Shown here: positions 4,361-58,346 of the stretch, piece after piece | Numbering within the stretch: position 1 is the stretch's first letter | Layout of the letters: each line of letters begins with the position of its first letter | Source: Pseudomonas laurentiana | GTDB taxonomy: Bacteria; Pseudomonadota; Gammaproteobacteria; Pseudomonadales; Pseudomonadaceae | Length of the DNA: 64,000 bases | Reading direction: 5' to 3' | Assembly: GCF_014648275.1 (NCBI RefSeq) | Contig: NZ_BMQU01000008.1 | Coordinates: forward strand, 168,592-232,591 | Translations under genes and position numbers: made by a program | Notes under the pieces: generated by a model | The model's input: only the letters and a program-made list of their open reading frames with translations | The model's database searches: none | Told to the model about the DNA's origin: nothing

Positions 4361-6051
<1,691 letters not shown>

Positions 6052-53226: not shown

Positions 53227-53496
53227 ATGATAAAACAAGAAGAATCAAAGAGCAGGGATGCCATCCTCAAGCGGCTGGCCCGTGTCGAGGGGCAGGTTCG
53301 CGGTATTCAGGCAATGATCACCCGTGGTGATGAGTGTGAGGCCGTTGCCCAGCAGTTCAGTGCGGCACGCAAGGCCCTCGACAAGGCCTATCAGGAAATG
53401 TTGGTGTGCCTGGTGGAGGACGCGATCCTGAGCCCTGAACAGAGCAATCAGGAAAAACTCGCCCAGGTTCGCGCCATCTTTACCAAGTACACCTAA
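53227..53496 (+). CDS. CsoR/FrmR-family transcriptional repressor with atypical cysteine pair
   Basis: This 89-aa all-helical DUF156 protein has the family block LKRLARVEGQVRGIQAMI (residues 14-31). Cys37 aligns with the W-position Cys of CsoR/FrmR. The usual His at +25 is Leu62, and Cys61 is one position before it. The CsoR/CstR second Cys position (+29) is Ala66. This fits neither the Cu(I) nor the formaldehyde set, so a thiol-based sensor is possible. Its stop overlaps the ybgE stop by 3 bp, and a CsoR-like operator lies at the cyd promoter 3.5 kb away. Confidence 0.88.
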   Translation: MIKQEESKSRDAILKRLARVEGQVRGIQAMITRGDECEAVAQQFSAARKALDKAYQEMLVCLVEDAILSPEQSNQEKLAQVRAIFTKYT

Positions 53497-53798
53497 GCCA
53501 TGCCTTGAACGCGGGCTTGCCAGAGGATGGCATAGCCCAGCCCCATCAGCAGCCATCCCAGCAAAGGATGGAAGACACTGCGCCACAACCGGCTTTGCGG
53601 GTCAAAGCCCACTCCATGAATGAAGCCGCTGGAAATACCCAGCATGCTCAGCATGATCAGCCGATGACTGTAGTGGCCATCGGCGTCCAGCATCACCGCC
53701 GGGTGGATCAGGAAGATCAATGACAGGGGCGTCGCCAGCAGTAGCGACACAGCGCGGGTGTAACCGCGCTGCAGCCATGGACGGGGCTTACTGGTCAC
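53493..53798 (-). CDS. ybgE: Cyd operon protein YbgE-like
   Basis: This 101-aa membrane protein has three hydrophobic segments (AVSLLLATPLSLIFLI, RLIMLSMLGISSGFIHGVGF, LLGWLLMGLGYAIL) and the GFIHGVGFDP motif of YbgE proteins found at the end of cyd operons. Its function is unknown. It starts at GTG 53798, overlapping the cydX stop by 11 bp. Confidence 0.82.
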   Translation of the reverse strand: MTSKPRPWLQRGYTRAVSLLLATPLSLIFLIHPAVMLDADGHYSHRLIMLSMLGISSGFIHGVGFDPQSRLWRSVFHPLLGWLLMGLGYAILWQARVQGMA

Positions 53799-53904
53799 CC
53801 CTCACCTCTTCATCAAGGTTCTGGTGGGTTTCCAGCCACAGGGCGTTGATGATGCCGAAGCTGCAGGCCAACAGTACGCCGAGTATCCAGGTGAAATACC
53901 ACAT
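53788..53904 (-). CDS. cydX: Cytochrome bd small subunit CydX
   Basis: This 38-aa single-helix subunit is too short for routine gene calling. I translated it as MWYFTWILGVLLACSFGI, followed by a helix end NALWLET and a charged tail. The MWYF-W-LG start and EXH/ET end of the helix are typical of CydX, which stabilises the CydAB haems. AAGGAGAA lies before the ATG at 53904. It sits 74 bp after cydB and overlaps ybgE. Confidence 0.92.
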   Translation of the reverse strand: MWYFTWILGVLLACSFGIINALWLETHQNLDEEVRGDQ

Positions 53905-53978: not shown

Positions 53979-55118
53979 TCAATACAGCCCGTGAGGGTTG
54001 GCTTCGATGGTCTTGTTGGTCAGGCGTCCCCACATGCGGGTGTAGCACCACAGCGTGTAACCCAGGATCAGCGGCACGAAAATGCATGCCACGATCAGCA
54101 GGATGCCGAGGGTCTTCTGGCTGGAGACCGCGTCCCATACTGTCAGGCTTGAGGCGGCATCGAGGCTCGATGGAAACACGAACGGGAACAGCGCAAAGCC
54201 CGCGGTACAGATCGTGCCGACAATCGCCAGGCTGCTGCCGAGGAAGGCCACGCCCGCACGGTTCAGTTGGGCACCGAGCAGGGCCAGCAATGCGCCGACA
54301 AAACCCAGCACGGGTGCGATGACGGTCAGTGGGTAGTGGCTGTAGTTGGCCAGCCAGCCAGCGTTGCCCACCGCGACCTGTTTGCTCAGCGGGTTGATTG
54401 CGCCACCGGTATTGATCCCGTCGGCCAGGGTCAGCCCAGGGATCGAGGCCACCAGCCAGGCGCCCGCACCGGCAAAGGCCGTCAAGTACACCAGTGCGCA
54501 CAAGCGGGTCGCCACACGGGAGCGTGCATGCAGATCGGCATCGGTACGCAGCATCAGCCAGGCCCCGCCGTGCATGCTCAGCATGCTCAAACTCACCACG
54601 CCGGCGAGCAGGGCGAACGGGTGCAGCAAACCGAAGAACGAGCCTTCGTAGCTGGAGCGCATCAGCTCGTCAAGGCGGAACGGCAGGCCCAAAAACAGGT
54701 TGCCAAAGGCTACGCCAAACAGCAGGGCCGGTACGGCACCGCCGGTGAACAGGGCCCAGTCCCAGGCGTTGCGCCACTTCTGGTTTTCCAGCTTGCTGCG
54801 GTAGTCAAAACCCACCGGCCGGCAGAACAGGGCAAACAGCACCAGCAGCATGGCCCAGTACAACCCGGAAAACGCCACGGCATAGACCATCGGCCACGCC
54901 GCGAACAGCGCGCCGCCCGCAGTGATGAACCACACCTGATTGCCATCCCAGTGCGGGGCAATGGTATTGATCGCCACTCGCCGTTCATTATCGGTTTTAC
55001 CCACGAACGGCATGAGCGCCATGGCCCCCATGTCAAAACCGTCGGTCAGGGCGAAGCCGATCAGCAGCACGCCGATCAACACCCACCACACCAGCTTCAG
55101 TGTTTCGTAATCAAACAT
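53979..55118 (-). CDS. cydB: Cytochrome bd ubiquinol oxidase subunit II
   Basis: This 379-aa protein with eight or nine TM helices equals E. coli CydB in length (cyanide-insensitive CioB is shorter). Conserved start motifs are LVWWVLIGVLLIGFALTDGFDMG and VAINTIAPHWDGNQVWFITAGGALFAAWP. The ATG at 55118 has GAGGAG upstream. It follows cydA by 10 bp. With CydA it oxidises quinol and reduces O2 without proton pumping, at high oxygen affinity. Confidence 0.96.
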   Translation of the reverse strand: MFDYETLKLVWWVLIGVLLIGFALTDGFDMGAMALMPFVGKTDNERRVAINTIAPHWDGNQVWFITAGGALFAAWPMVYAVAFSGLYWAMLLVLFALFCRPVGFDYRSKLENQKWRNAWDWALFTGGAVPALLFGVAFGNLFLGLPFRLDELMRSSYEGSFFGLLHPFALLAGVVSLSMLSMHGGAWLMLRTDADLHARSRVATRLCALVYLTAFAGAGAWLVASIPGLTLADGINTGGAINPLSKQVAVGNAGWLANYSHYPLTVIAPVLGFVGALLALLGAQLNRAGVAFLGSSLAIVGTICTAGFALFPFVFPSSLDAASSLTVWDAVSSQKTLGILLIVACIFVPLILGYTLWCYTRMWGRLTNKTIEANPHGLY

Positions 55119-55128
55119 GATCTGCTCC

Positions 55129-56703
55129 TCAAGCCTTGACGGTGTGCGCGACAGCGTCACGCTCGAAGTGATAGCGCCCGGTGTGCAGGCTGGACGGGCC
55201 AAGGCGGGCAAACTTGATCATCAGGTACATCTCGATCACCAGCAGCAGGCTGTAGAAGGCGATCAGTGCCAACAGCGAACCCATCACATCACCCGCCGAC
55301 AGCGACGAGGTCGAAAGGTGAACCGGCAGCACTTCGGCAATCGACCACGGCTGACGACCGTGCTCGGCGACCACCCAACCGGTCTGGGCGGCAATCCATG
55401 GCAGTGGCAGGCTGCACACCGCGAACCTGAGCAACCAAGGCTTGTTCTCGGCATTACGCTTGATCGACGCCCAGGCAGCCAGCACGAACAGCACCAGCAT
55501 CAGGAAACCGGAGGCCACCATGGCGCGGAAGCTCCAGAACATGGTGAAGACGTCCGGAATGGTGTCCAGCGAGGCTTGCTTGATGTGCGCTTCGCTGGCG
55601 TCGACCACGCTCGGGGTGTACTTCTTCAGCAGCAGGCCGTAGCCGAGGTCTTTTTTCACCTCATTGAACGCGGCGATGTTGGCCTCGCTCTTGTCGCCAT
55701 GACGCAGCTTCTCCAGCAGGCCATAGGCGATCATGCCGTTACGAATGCGCACTTCATGGTGAGCGATCAGGTCCTTGATACCCATGACCTGCTTGTCCAC
55801 CGAGCGCGTTGCGATGATGCCCATCACATACGGGATCTTCACCGCATAGTCGGTACGTTGCTGCTCCTGGTTCGGCAGACCAAACAGGGTGAACGCGGCG
55901 GGCGCCGGTTCGGTTTCCCATTCGGCTTCAATCGCCGCCAGCTTGGTCGTTTGTACGTCACCAATCTCGTAGCCGGATTCATCACCCAGCAGGATCACCG
56001 AAATGGTCGAGGCCAGGCCGAACACCGCGGCAATCGCAAACGAACGACGGGCAAACGCCAGGTCGCGTTTCTTCAGCAGGTAGTAGCTGGAGATCGCCAG
56101 CACAAACACGGCACCCGTCACGTAACCGGCAGAGACGGTGTGAACGAACTTCACCTGCGCGACCGGGTTGAACAGCAGCGCGCCGAAATTGGTCAGCTCC
56201 ATGCGCATGGTTTCAAAGTTGAACTCGGCACCCACCGGGTTCTGCATCCAGCCGTTGGCGATCAGGATCCACAGCGCCGACATGTTCGAGCCAATCGCCA
56301 CCAGCCAGGTCACCGCCAAGTGCTGCACGCGGCTCAGGCGGTCCCAGCCAAAGAAGAACAGGCCGATGAAAGTCGACTCAAGAAAGAACGCCATCATCCC
56401 TTCAATGGCCAGCGGCGCACCAAAGATGTCGCCCACGTAGTGGCTGTAGTAGGCCCAGTTGGTGCCGAACTGGAACTCCATCGTCAGCCCGGTGGTTACC
56501 CCCAGGGCAAAGTTGATCCCGAACAACTTGCCCCAGAACTTGACCATGTCCTTGTACACCTGCTTGCCGGTCATCACATAGACCGACTCCATGATGGCCA
56601 GCAGAAACGCCAGCCCCAGGGTCAAGGGCACAAACAAAAAGTGGTACATCGCGGTGACTGCAAATTGCAGGCGCGACAGATCGACTACGGATTCCGAGAT
56701 CAT
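55129..56703 (-). CDS. cydA: Cytochrome bd ubiquinol oxidase subunit I
   Basis: This 524-aa subunit carries haems b558, b595 and d. His near residue 20 is in [19 protein letters not shown], the [20 protein letters not shown] block holds key Glu residues, and [17 protein letters not shown] precedes the quinol loop. The Q-loop is long (about residues 255-390, with [24 protein letters not shown]), the canonical E. coli bd-I type rather than the short-loop CioA type usual in Pseudomonas. Its start overlaps the cydP stop by 4 bp. Confidence 0.97.
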
Positions 56704-56909
56704 CTCGGTTTCTCCTCGGTGAGTTGCGAAGGGGGTGGCGTGCCGAATAGGTGGGCGTCGAAGCGCGCACTGCCGTTTACCGGCACCGTTGGTTCACTGA
56801 ACCAGATGGCTTTTATGCTGAAGAGGATGACCAGCTTGACCACGAGGATGATGCCGATTTCCCGTACCAGCGGGATTCGCCATGGGGACTTGGGGGCATC
56901 GTTGGGCAC
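56700..56909 (-). CDS. cydP: Cytochrome oxidase putative small subunit CydP
   Basis: This 69-aa protein has one TM helix ([25 protein letters not shown]) followed by a short soluble tail with FDAHLFG, the CydP pattern found just upstream of cydAB in some gammaproteobacteria. The start is GTG 56909. It is translationally coupled to cydA by a 4-bp overlap and is the first gene of the cydP-A-B-X-ybgE operon. Confidence 0.85.
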
Positions 56910-57044
56910 GCTGTGACTCCGAGGTCGATCAGGCGGGCATTGCGACGACGGTCATGGGGTAAACCTGGCGCCATCCAGCAACGTCTGCTGAGGAGTTTGG
57001 CGAGTGTTCCGGGGCTCAGAACACTCATGGCGCAATGCTACGTG

Positions 57045-57060
57045 ATACCCGTGGGGGTAT
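57045..57060 (-). promoter_or_regulatory. CsoR/CstR-like operator at the cyd promoter
   Basis: ATACCC-GTGG-GGGTAT is a perfect 6-bp-arm inverted repeat of the TACCC-N4-GGGTA kind bound by CsoR/CstR repressors. On the minus strand it overlaps a -10-like TATCAC (57047-57042), so binding would block the promoter. The CsoR-family gene at 53227 is the obvious candidate ligand. Confidence 0.6.
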
Positions 57061-57074
57061 GTAAGGCGCGACCA

Positions 57075-57088
57075 TTGACGCAAGTCAA
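57075..57088 (-). promoter_or_regulatory. ANR/FNR-like box upstream of the cyd operon
   Basis: TTGAC-GCAA-GTCAA is a perfect palindrome matching TTGAT-N4-ATCAA at 8 of 10. Its centre lies 29 bp upstream of the CsoR-like operator and about 41-46 bp before the predicted start of transcription, the classical activator position. Confidence 0.65.
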
Positions 57089-57140
57089 GGCCACGCCAAG
57101 TAGTGCCCAGCCCGGGCAAAAAACACAGATTGTCCGGCCA

Positions 57141-58346
57141 CTACTGCGCGCGCAGGCCTGCCACCGGCTTGCGCCCACCATGGATCAGCAGATGAACCAC
57201 CAGGCCCGCAACCAGCCCCCAGAACGCGCCACCGACACCCAGCAAGGTGACATTGGCTGCCGTGGCCAAGAAGGTGATGAGGGCCGTCTCGCGGGTGCGG
57301 GCATCCACCATGGCATTGGCCAGGCTGCCGCCAATCGCACCTAGCAAGGCCAAGCCCGCCAGCGTGGTGACGAAGGTTCGCGGCAACACCATGAACAACG
57401 TTGCCAAGGTGACGCCGAAGACACCGACCATGACATACAGCGCGCCGCACACCAGCCCGGCGATGTAGCGCTTGGACGAGTCCTCATGGGCATCCTTGCC
57501 CGTGCAGATGGCCGCCGTGATCGCTGCCACATTGAACGCGTGGGCACCGAACGGCGCCATCAGAAGCGAGCCCAGGCCCGTGACGGTAAGGATCGGGTTG
57601 GCGCTGGTCTTGAAACCGTCATTGCGCAGCACCAGCATGCCCGGCATGTACTGCCCGGTCAGGGTAATGACGAACAGCGGCAGCGCCACCCCCAGCAGCG
57701 AGCCCAACGAGAACTGCGGCAACTCAAACACCGGTGCGGCCAGGCTCAACTGCAGTTGCTGCACGTCGATCCTGTCCTGAGCGATGAGCAGGGCCAGGCC
57801 GATCAGCAGAATGCCGACCACGGCAAAGCGAGAGGTGAAGCGGCGCAGCACGGCGTAGGCCAGCACCAGCACAATCACCAACAGCGGGTCGGCGCTGGCG
57901 CCGCCAAACGCATTCACGCCAAATTGCAGCAGGATACCCGCAAGCAGGCCTGCGGCAATGCCGCTCGGAATCCAGCGAACCAGTCGTTCAAACGCCCCGG
58001 ACACGCCCAGCACGATAAAGCCGATTGCCGACAGCATGTAGGCGCCGATCACCTCGCCATACGGCGTGAACGGCATCACCGTCGCCAGAAAGGCCACACC
58101 CGGTGTAGACCAGGCGGTAATGATCGGTTCGCGGTAGCGGTAGCTCAGCCAGGCGCCGGTCACGCCGACACCGATACTCACCGACCACACCCAGGACGCC
58201 GTTTGCGCCGCGCTGAGCTGGGCCAGTTGCGCCGCCTGAAACACCAGCACGAACGTGCCGCCATAGTTCACGATGACTGAAATCAGTGCCGCAATGCTGG
58301 GGGATACAAGGTCGCTTGCGCGCAGGCCGGTTGTTGATCGAATCAC
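57141..58346 (-). CDS. benE: BenE-family benzoate/aromatic acid:proton symporter-like transporter
   Basis: This 401-aa inner-membrane protein has about 11-12 TM helices and BenE-family blocks (SVIVNYGGTFVLVFQAAQLAQLS, YREPIITAWSTPGVAFLAT, NDGFKTSANPILTVTGLGSLLMAPFGAHAFNVAAI and AICTGKDAH). The fold is shared with the nucleobase-transporter superfamily. No ben catabolic genes adjoin it, so benzoate is only the family default. The start is GTG 58346 with AGGAAGGA upstream. It follows a MocR regulator gene in the same direction, which probably controls it. Confidence 0.88.
   Translation of the reverse strand: MIRSTTGLRASDLVSPSIAALISVIVNYGGTFVLVFQAAQLAQLSAAQTASWVWSVSIGVGVTGAWLSYRYREPIITAWSTPGVAFLATVMPFTPYGEVIGAYMLSAIGFIVLGVSGAFERLVRWIPSGIAAGLLAGILLQFGVNAFGGASADPLLVIVLVLAYAVLRRFTSRFAVVGILLIGLALLIAQDRIDVQQLQLSLAAPVFELPQFSLGSLLGVALPLFVITLTGQYMPGMLVLRNDGFKTSANPILTVTGLGSLLMAPFGAHAFNVAAITAAICTGKDAHEDSSKRYIAGLVCGALYVMVGVFGVTLATLFMVLPRTFVTTLAGLALLGAIGGSLANAMVDARTRETALITFLATAANVTLLGVGGAFWGLVAGLVVHLLIHGGRKPVAGLRAQ

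Follow-up and report, generated by a model that had tools for sequence, protein, structure and literature searches.

A putative CsoR-family operator at a cytochrome bd promoter and its counterparts at sulfur genes of related pseudomonads

Heme-copper oxidases are inhibited by sulfide whereas cytochrome bd is resistant, and sulfide-inducible cydAB genes have been described in several bacteria (PMC7315123). Among Gram-negatives, Acinetobacter baumannii offers a parallel to the locus described here, since sulfide raises its cydAB transcription, but the persulfide sensors of that study, FisR among them, are not CsoR-family proteins (PMC7315123). The dedicated cyd repressors among the literature matches listed, CioR and CydE, are of MarR/GbsR types (PMC11837568, PMC6096048). 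CioR of Chromobacterium violaceum (MarR family, predicted GbsR type) lies beside a sulfide-resistance bd oxidase, as does the GbsR-type CydE of Alishewanella; both differ from our regulator in protein family, the CioR operon answered only cyanide among the compounds tested (PMC11837568), and CydE is derepressed by sulfate (PMC6096048).

Within the CsoR family, the persulfide sensor CstR of S. aureus is believed to have a single direct target, the cst operon (PMC5480029), and in B. licheniformis the CstR-like protein YrkD represses sqr and pdo (PMC9918477). TTHA1953 of Thermus thermophilus likewise belongs to the CsoR family, represses sulfur genes and has redox-active cysteines, but these are C39 and C68, the protein recognizes TACNNTACNNNNGTANNGTA, and its targets are sox genes (PMC10318464). 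The copper CsoR regulon of M. tuberculosis goes up in response to H2S, and the accessible part of that report describes no CsoR control of cyd (PMC6987094). The literature matches listed, whose coverage leaves out most subscription papers, include no cyd or cio operon under the control of CsoR or CstR.

The regulator encoded in our window (the whole 64-kb stretch of Pseudomonas laurentiana DNA that was analyzed) belongs, like YrkD and the persulfide-sensing CstR repressors of Staphylococcus, Enterococcus and Streptococcus, to the DUF156 family. It shares with CstR a first cysteine in the same column as that of an Enterococcus homologue (L060), and the regulon of its relatives contains sulfide-oxidation genes, for persulfide dioxygenase (PDO), SQR, rhodanese and TauE. 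It differs in the place of its second cysteine, which is in column 61 and not in column 66 as in CstR and CsoR, in forming a separate clade, and in having cytochrome bd genes behind the putative operator. The window system appears to work like CstR, yet its regulator lacks the second cysteine by which a CstR is recognized. A CstR is further characterized by a di-, tri- or tetrasulfide cross-link formed with persulfides and by the release from DNA that goes with it.

The cyd cluster and the palindrome before it

Searches with Pfam and NCBIfam identified cydP-cydA-cydB-cydX-ybgE on the minus strand, from 56909 to 53493. An intact csoR-like gene, convergent with ybgE, closes the cluster, and a benE-type transporter gene upstream of the cluster has its end at 57141. 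The features are as follows.

56700..56909, minus strand: cydP, small cytochrome oxidase subunit (NCBIfam NF045611, E 2.6e-15, 56.1 bits versus 29.6)
55129..56703, minus strand: cydA, cytochrome bd subunit I (Pfam PF01654, E 1.9e-172)
53979..55118, minus strand: cydB, cytochrome bd subunit II (TIGR00203, E 2.9e-148; the match begins at residue 32 of the longer cydB ORF)
53788..53904, minus strand: cydX (TIGR02106, E 3.6e-18)
53493..53798, minus strand: ybgE (PF09600, E 2.5e-22)
53227..53496, plus strand: csoR-like regulator of the DUF156 family, 89 aa, with Cys37 and Cys61 (PF02583, E 1.2e-19)
57045..57060, no strand assigned: proposed CsoR-family operator ATACCC-GTGG-GGGTAT (exact motif scans, csoR co-occurrence, shared use at sulfur genes)
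57075..57088, minus strand: ANR/FNR-like box TTGACTTGCGTCAA (from the sequence; 29 bp centre to centre from the operator)
57042..57047, minus strand: candidate -10 TATCAC, overlapping the operator (sequence only)
57035..57040, minus strand: TAGCAT, an alternative -10 candidate (TAACAT at the aligned position of G064 and of the csoR-less G008)

The palindrome ATACCCGTGGGGGTAT lies between the ANR/FNR-like box and cydPABX-ybgE. Both of its 6-base arms are perfect, and its TAC/GTA ends and C/G run agree with the description of CsoR/RcnR-superfamily operators as pseudo-palindromic sequences with just these elements (PMC10318464). An earlier, sequence-only reading of this DNA had given the palindrome with these letters and coordinates, an FNR-type palindrome 29 bp from it centre to centre, and a CsoR-family gene tail-to-tail with ybgE at the other end of the cluster, and all three are borne out. 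ATACCCGTGGGGGTAT is the sole exact match to ATACCC-N4-GGGTAT both in the window and in the 5.2-Mb assembly (G000, 223 contigs). With 3 mismatches allowed, the window holds 11 matches against a shuffle mean of 11.9, so that loose matches are what chance would give and the exact one alone stands out. Loose matching was likewise rejected as a criterion for sites, because a 2-mismatch scan of the genome returned 147 matches versus 69 for a reversed control, which is too many.

Co-occurrence of site and regulator

Absence of the repeat from orthologous cyd promoters had been named beforehand as what would refute the sequence-only reading; we found it conserved there. The genus sample comprised 149 genomes, with cydA in 25 (E up to 1e-100) and a csoR orthologue in 13 (E below 1e-30). 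All five cydA genomes with csoR (5/5) carried the site with 0 to 2 mismatches upstream of cydA, and the best upstream match in the 20 without csoR had 3 to 6 mismatches. The family sample comprised 348 genomes, with csoR in 95 (E up to 1e-20) and cydA in 117 (E up to 1e-150). Hits to cydA without a start were left out (G172, G193, G237 and G308, three of these four csoR+), so that the pooled set comprised 130 genomes of Pseudomonadaceae in which the start of cydA could be read, and the 450 bp upstream of cydA were scanned; two csoR- regions were shorter, at 148 and 223 bp. Across both samples, a site with at most 2 mismatches was found in 21 of 56 csoR+ genomes and in none of 74 csoR- genomes. 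Since the 2-mismatch cut-off had been set after the first 25 genomes, we also give the count for the remaining 105, obtained by subtraction: 16/51 versus 0/54. Allowing 3 mismatches weakened the contrast (24/59 versus 8/74 regions). Stratified by genus, the association between site and csoR had a p value of 5.7e-12, although species inside a genus are still related and not independent. Among half-site permutations (n=60), ATACCC was the best discriminator, at 21/0 versus 8/1 for the next.

What speaks against the proposed operator is that cydA lacks a site in 35 of the 56 csoR+ genomes. Of these, 28 belong to a single genus, g15, presumably Stutzerimonas, since the positions of its csoR agree with those in named loci (e.g., L026). 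In the named Stutzerimonas loci, csoR lies a few genes away from a PDO-SQR operon, and most of them have a site at that operon. In Stutzerimonas kirkiae (L033:3155-5230), cydB followed by a PDO-like gene stands directly behind a site, and the locus has no cydA match.

Comparison of promoters also bears on the layout in the window, where the ANR/FNR-like box differs from TTGATNNNNATCAA by 2 mismatches. Of the 21 site-bearing cyd promoters, 13 have an ANR-like box (at most 2 mismatches) no more than 90 bp before the site, a count made with no chance control, and the other 8 lack one in that interval; the spacing from box to site is 24-29 bp in 10 promoters and 47-49 bp in 3. The promoters of two relatives, G064 (csoR+, 2-mismatch site) and G008 (csoR-), can be aligned and share an ANR-like box and GTAACATTA. 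In G008 the palindrome stretch is missing and, counted on the sequence, the distance between box and GTAACATTA is 12 bp shorter. The -10 candidate follows the ANR-like box by 21-22 bp in the csoR-less promoters L095, L099 and G008, whereas in G064 the operator-bearing stretch widens this distance to 33 bp. Class II ANR geometry (the -41.5 rule) was considered for placing the start site and dropped on account of these differing distances, and we therefore claim no start site. As for the -10-like TATCAC that the earlier reading had seen overlapping the palindrome, the overlap itself stands (57047-57042), but TAGCAT downstream (57040-57035) rivals it as the -10; an overlap of the operator with a -10 is plausible.

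Sulfur genes behind the site and the cysteines of the regulator

In csoR-bearing genomes the same site also occurs elsewhere. In 46 stretches of such genomes (598,657 bases; 42 hold csoR, and five near-identical loci were dropped) we found 24 exact sites and 45 with at most 1 mismatch, a count biased upward by the stretches L234 and L238-L240 (five sites), which had been chosen for their exact sites. On the same stretches, 59 permuted half-sites gave means of 0.03 exact and 1.0 near-exact matches (maximum 8). All but two of the near-exact sites (43/45) lie at most 420 bp upstream of sulfur, csoR or oxidase genes, namely those for a PDO-like metallo-beta-lactamase, CsoR, a Tll0287-like protein, CioA, a 1-Cys peroxiredoxin, rhodanese, a DsrE-like protein (a weak match) and Cyd. 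The csoR gene or operon of relatives is often preceded by a site, and operons that follow a site frequently include PDO-like, SQR-like, TauE and SulP genes. The PDO call relies on resemblance to the dioxygenase half of Blh (NF040641; 415 bits, where the full-length cut-off is 625), and the SQR call on a match to NF049943 below its cut-off together with a fused TIGR01244 domain over cut-off. The sites in csoR-bearing genomes thus appear to mark a sulfur regulon like that of CstR.

Several arrangements connect this regulon to oxidase genes. In P. cuatrocienegasensis (L009) and in G133 the order is PDO-SulP-rhodanese-[site]-cydPABX-ybgE-csoR, and in L009 another site precedes PDO. A 1-mismatch site precedes cioA in L007, L008 and L115. 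In genus g6 (L244 and L245, from G243 and G257), csoR stands directly before cydP, at about 5185-5462, and the site reads ATACTC-N4-GAGTAT, with both arms changed symmetrically. Two further gene types recur behind sites. A gene for a small Tll0287-like protein with a CxxCH motif often lies between site and csoR (L010:5828-6373, L021, L120, L121 and others); its product may be a partner of the sensor. A 1-Cys peroxiredoxin gene is found at L092:14863 (G113), L006:1756 and L008:9589, and these sites would tie the regulon to peroxide or persulfide reduction.

In the window genome itself, no site lies upstream of csoR, the best match in 300 bp having 4 mismatches, and autoregulation through the same site was rejected on this ground. 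Its PDO-SQR-TauE operon (L236:4114-8684, G000:C1) likewise has no site before it, and there is a 2-mismatch match inside the PDO gene. This operon adjoins a divergent gene for a PAS-sigma54 activator whose domain order resembles that of FisR, a likeness we presume on that order and not on a named model match. (The other persulfide sensor of the A. baumannii study is reportedly the ArsR-type BigR.) As the operon lacks a site and adjoins this activator gene, two separate sulfur-responsive systems may coexist in the window genome, and since the sole exact site is at cyd, the CsoR-family protein may be a dedicated cyd regulator there. The genome has eight 1-mismatch matches. Those in L002-L005 and L237 were compared with reference sulfur and cyd proteins (C9:133134, C10:147842 and C22:28158 were left out), and they gave no match except weak ones for L003 (24-25% identity).

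Next, we asked how the regulator relates to the described members of its family. The DUF156 profile PF02583 covers the whole window protein (70.9 bits against a cut-off of 22.8), and its PDB matches are to CsoR, FrmR and InrS; the FrmR, RcnR and RicR models of NCBIfam scored 27.9-39.7 bits, under their cut-offs of 133-175. Cys37 occupies the column of CsoR Cys36 and CstR Cys31 and is kept in 48 of the 50 proteins with 50% identity or more (counting the window's own). At the column of CstR Cys60/CsoR Cys65 (column 66) the window protein has Ala66, and its second cysteine, Cys61, stands five residues before that position; it is kept in 47 of the same 50 proteins. Column 66 is Ala or Thr in 47 of these closer proteins and Cys in one (Desulfovibrio), as opposed to Cys in 44 of the 47 homologues below 50% identity. 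The Cys-His-Cys copper site is absent, with Leu62 and Ala66 at what we take to be the CsoR His61 and Cys65 columns. Enterococcus L060, which matches PDB entries 7mq1-7mq3, has its cysteines in columns 37 and 66, and 7MQ2 is named as CstR by a review (PMC9774590).

In a tree of 97 sequences, a branch with 100/95 support sets apart 50 proteobacterial sequences, 48 with C61 and 2 without either cysteine; two further C61 sequences sit on long branches on the other side. The small number of columns limits how finely this tree resolves. The window regulator is accordingly not a typical CstR, as it belongs to a separate clade and has its second cysteine at another position. In g6, both conserved cysteines are gone (Phe and Ala) and yet a site is kept, so that thiol sensing is not universal. 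The joint loss suggests that the cysteines act as a pair and that the g6 regulator senses another signal or none.

A proposed circuit and its possible signals

We regard the palindrome at 57045-57060 as a putative operator for the CsoR-family protein whose gene closes the cluster, a view supported by the comparisons above. The core idea of the sequence-only reading, repression of cyd by a CsoR-type protein, gains purely comparative support: among cydA genes, only those of csoR+ genomes have the site upstream, and sulfur genes share it. On balance, it is probable that a thiol-based, persulfide-responsive repressor blocks the cyd promoter and that ANR drives it once the repressor is released, although binding, repression, persulfide release and ANR activation are each inferred. 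In unstressed cells the protein, in its reduced state and tetrameric like others of its family, would sit on the operator between the ANR box and the transcription start and block RNA polymerase. Such a steric block is the simplest mode, given an operator that overlaps one candidate -10 and is flanked by the ANR-like box and the other. Sulfide would give rise to persulfides and polysulfides, by which Cys37 and Cys61 would be cross-linked or persulfidated; the modified protein would leave the DNA, and ANR would be free to drive cydPABX-ybgE when oxygen is low, which would supply a quinol oxidase that resists sulfide. If this is true, a direct link from sensor to operator at the cyd promoter would explain a respiratory switch under sulfide stress, apart from oxygen. 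The two-cysteine arrangement would be a natural variant of the persulfide-sensing dithiol, comparable with that of CstR, and the signature of regulator, operator and oxidase would make the circuit predictable in further pseudomonads.

It is tempting to extend this picture, although we do so tentatively and would not bet on it, to a proteobacterial class of sulfur-sensing CsoR-family proteins whose second cysteine is five residues off the CstR position along the helix. This class would tie sulfide detoxification to the choice of terminal oxidase (CydAB in some lineages, CioAB in others), and in one genus, with both cysteines lost, it would have become a cyd repressor that has another signal or none.

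Alternatively, the same repressor and operator might answer cyanide (or HNO/NO) instead of sulfide or persulfide. Rhodaneses and bd oxidases have a role in cyanide tolerance as well, and sites do precede cioA and rhodanese genes. Furthermore, P. pseudoalcaligenes CECT5344 needs CioAB to respire with cyanide (PMC6989483), CioABC is induced by cyanide waste (PMC5333837), and S. aureus CstR is inactivated by HNO too (PMC5480029). We nevertheless consider this unlikely, as the PDO-like, SQR-like, TauE and SulP genes so frequent behind sites point to sulfide oxidation.

Of the signals proposed in the earlier reading, then, sulfide or persulfide is favored by the sulfur-gene neighbors, and these same neighbors, together with Leu and Ala at the presumed CsoR His61 and Cys65 columns, disfavor copper and nickel. 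A repressor that senses these or another metal, like the classical CsoR and RcnR, would agree with the family membership (PF02583 and the PDB matches), but we deem it very improbable: no metal efflux protein was noticed, short of a dedicated search, among the cluster representatives listed, and it is the other of the two DUF156 genes in the assembly that adjoins a transporter, presumably of the cation-diffusion (CDF) type as recognized by eye.

That the palindrome at this promoter arose by chance, is a relic or serves a different regulator is scarcely credible given 0/74 csoR-less cydA regions with a site and the 24-29 bp spacing to the ANR-like box in 10 promoters, even though 56 of the 149 genus-sample genomes hold at least one exact match (10/13 with csoR, 46/136 without). 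The exact palindromes ATACCCCGTGGGGTAT and ATACCCACCAGGGTAT recur, each in at least a dozen csoR-less genomes (e.g., G017:C1:5778863, G139:C1:3890391 and G015:C1:1571396), where they may mark conserved binding sites for a different regulator or fall inside a conserved gene. Of 47 loci of distant homologues, 20 have TACCC-N4-GGGTA no further than 300 bp upstream of the family gene, and the 19 other permutations of TACCC gave 0.
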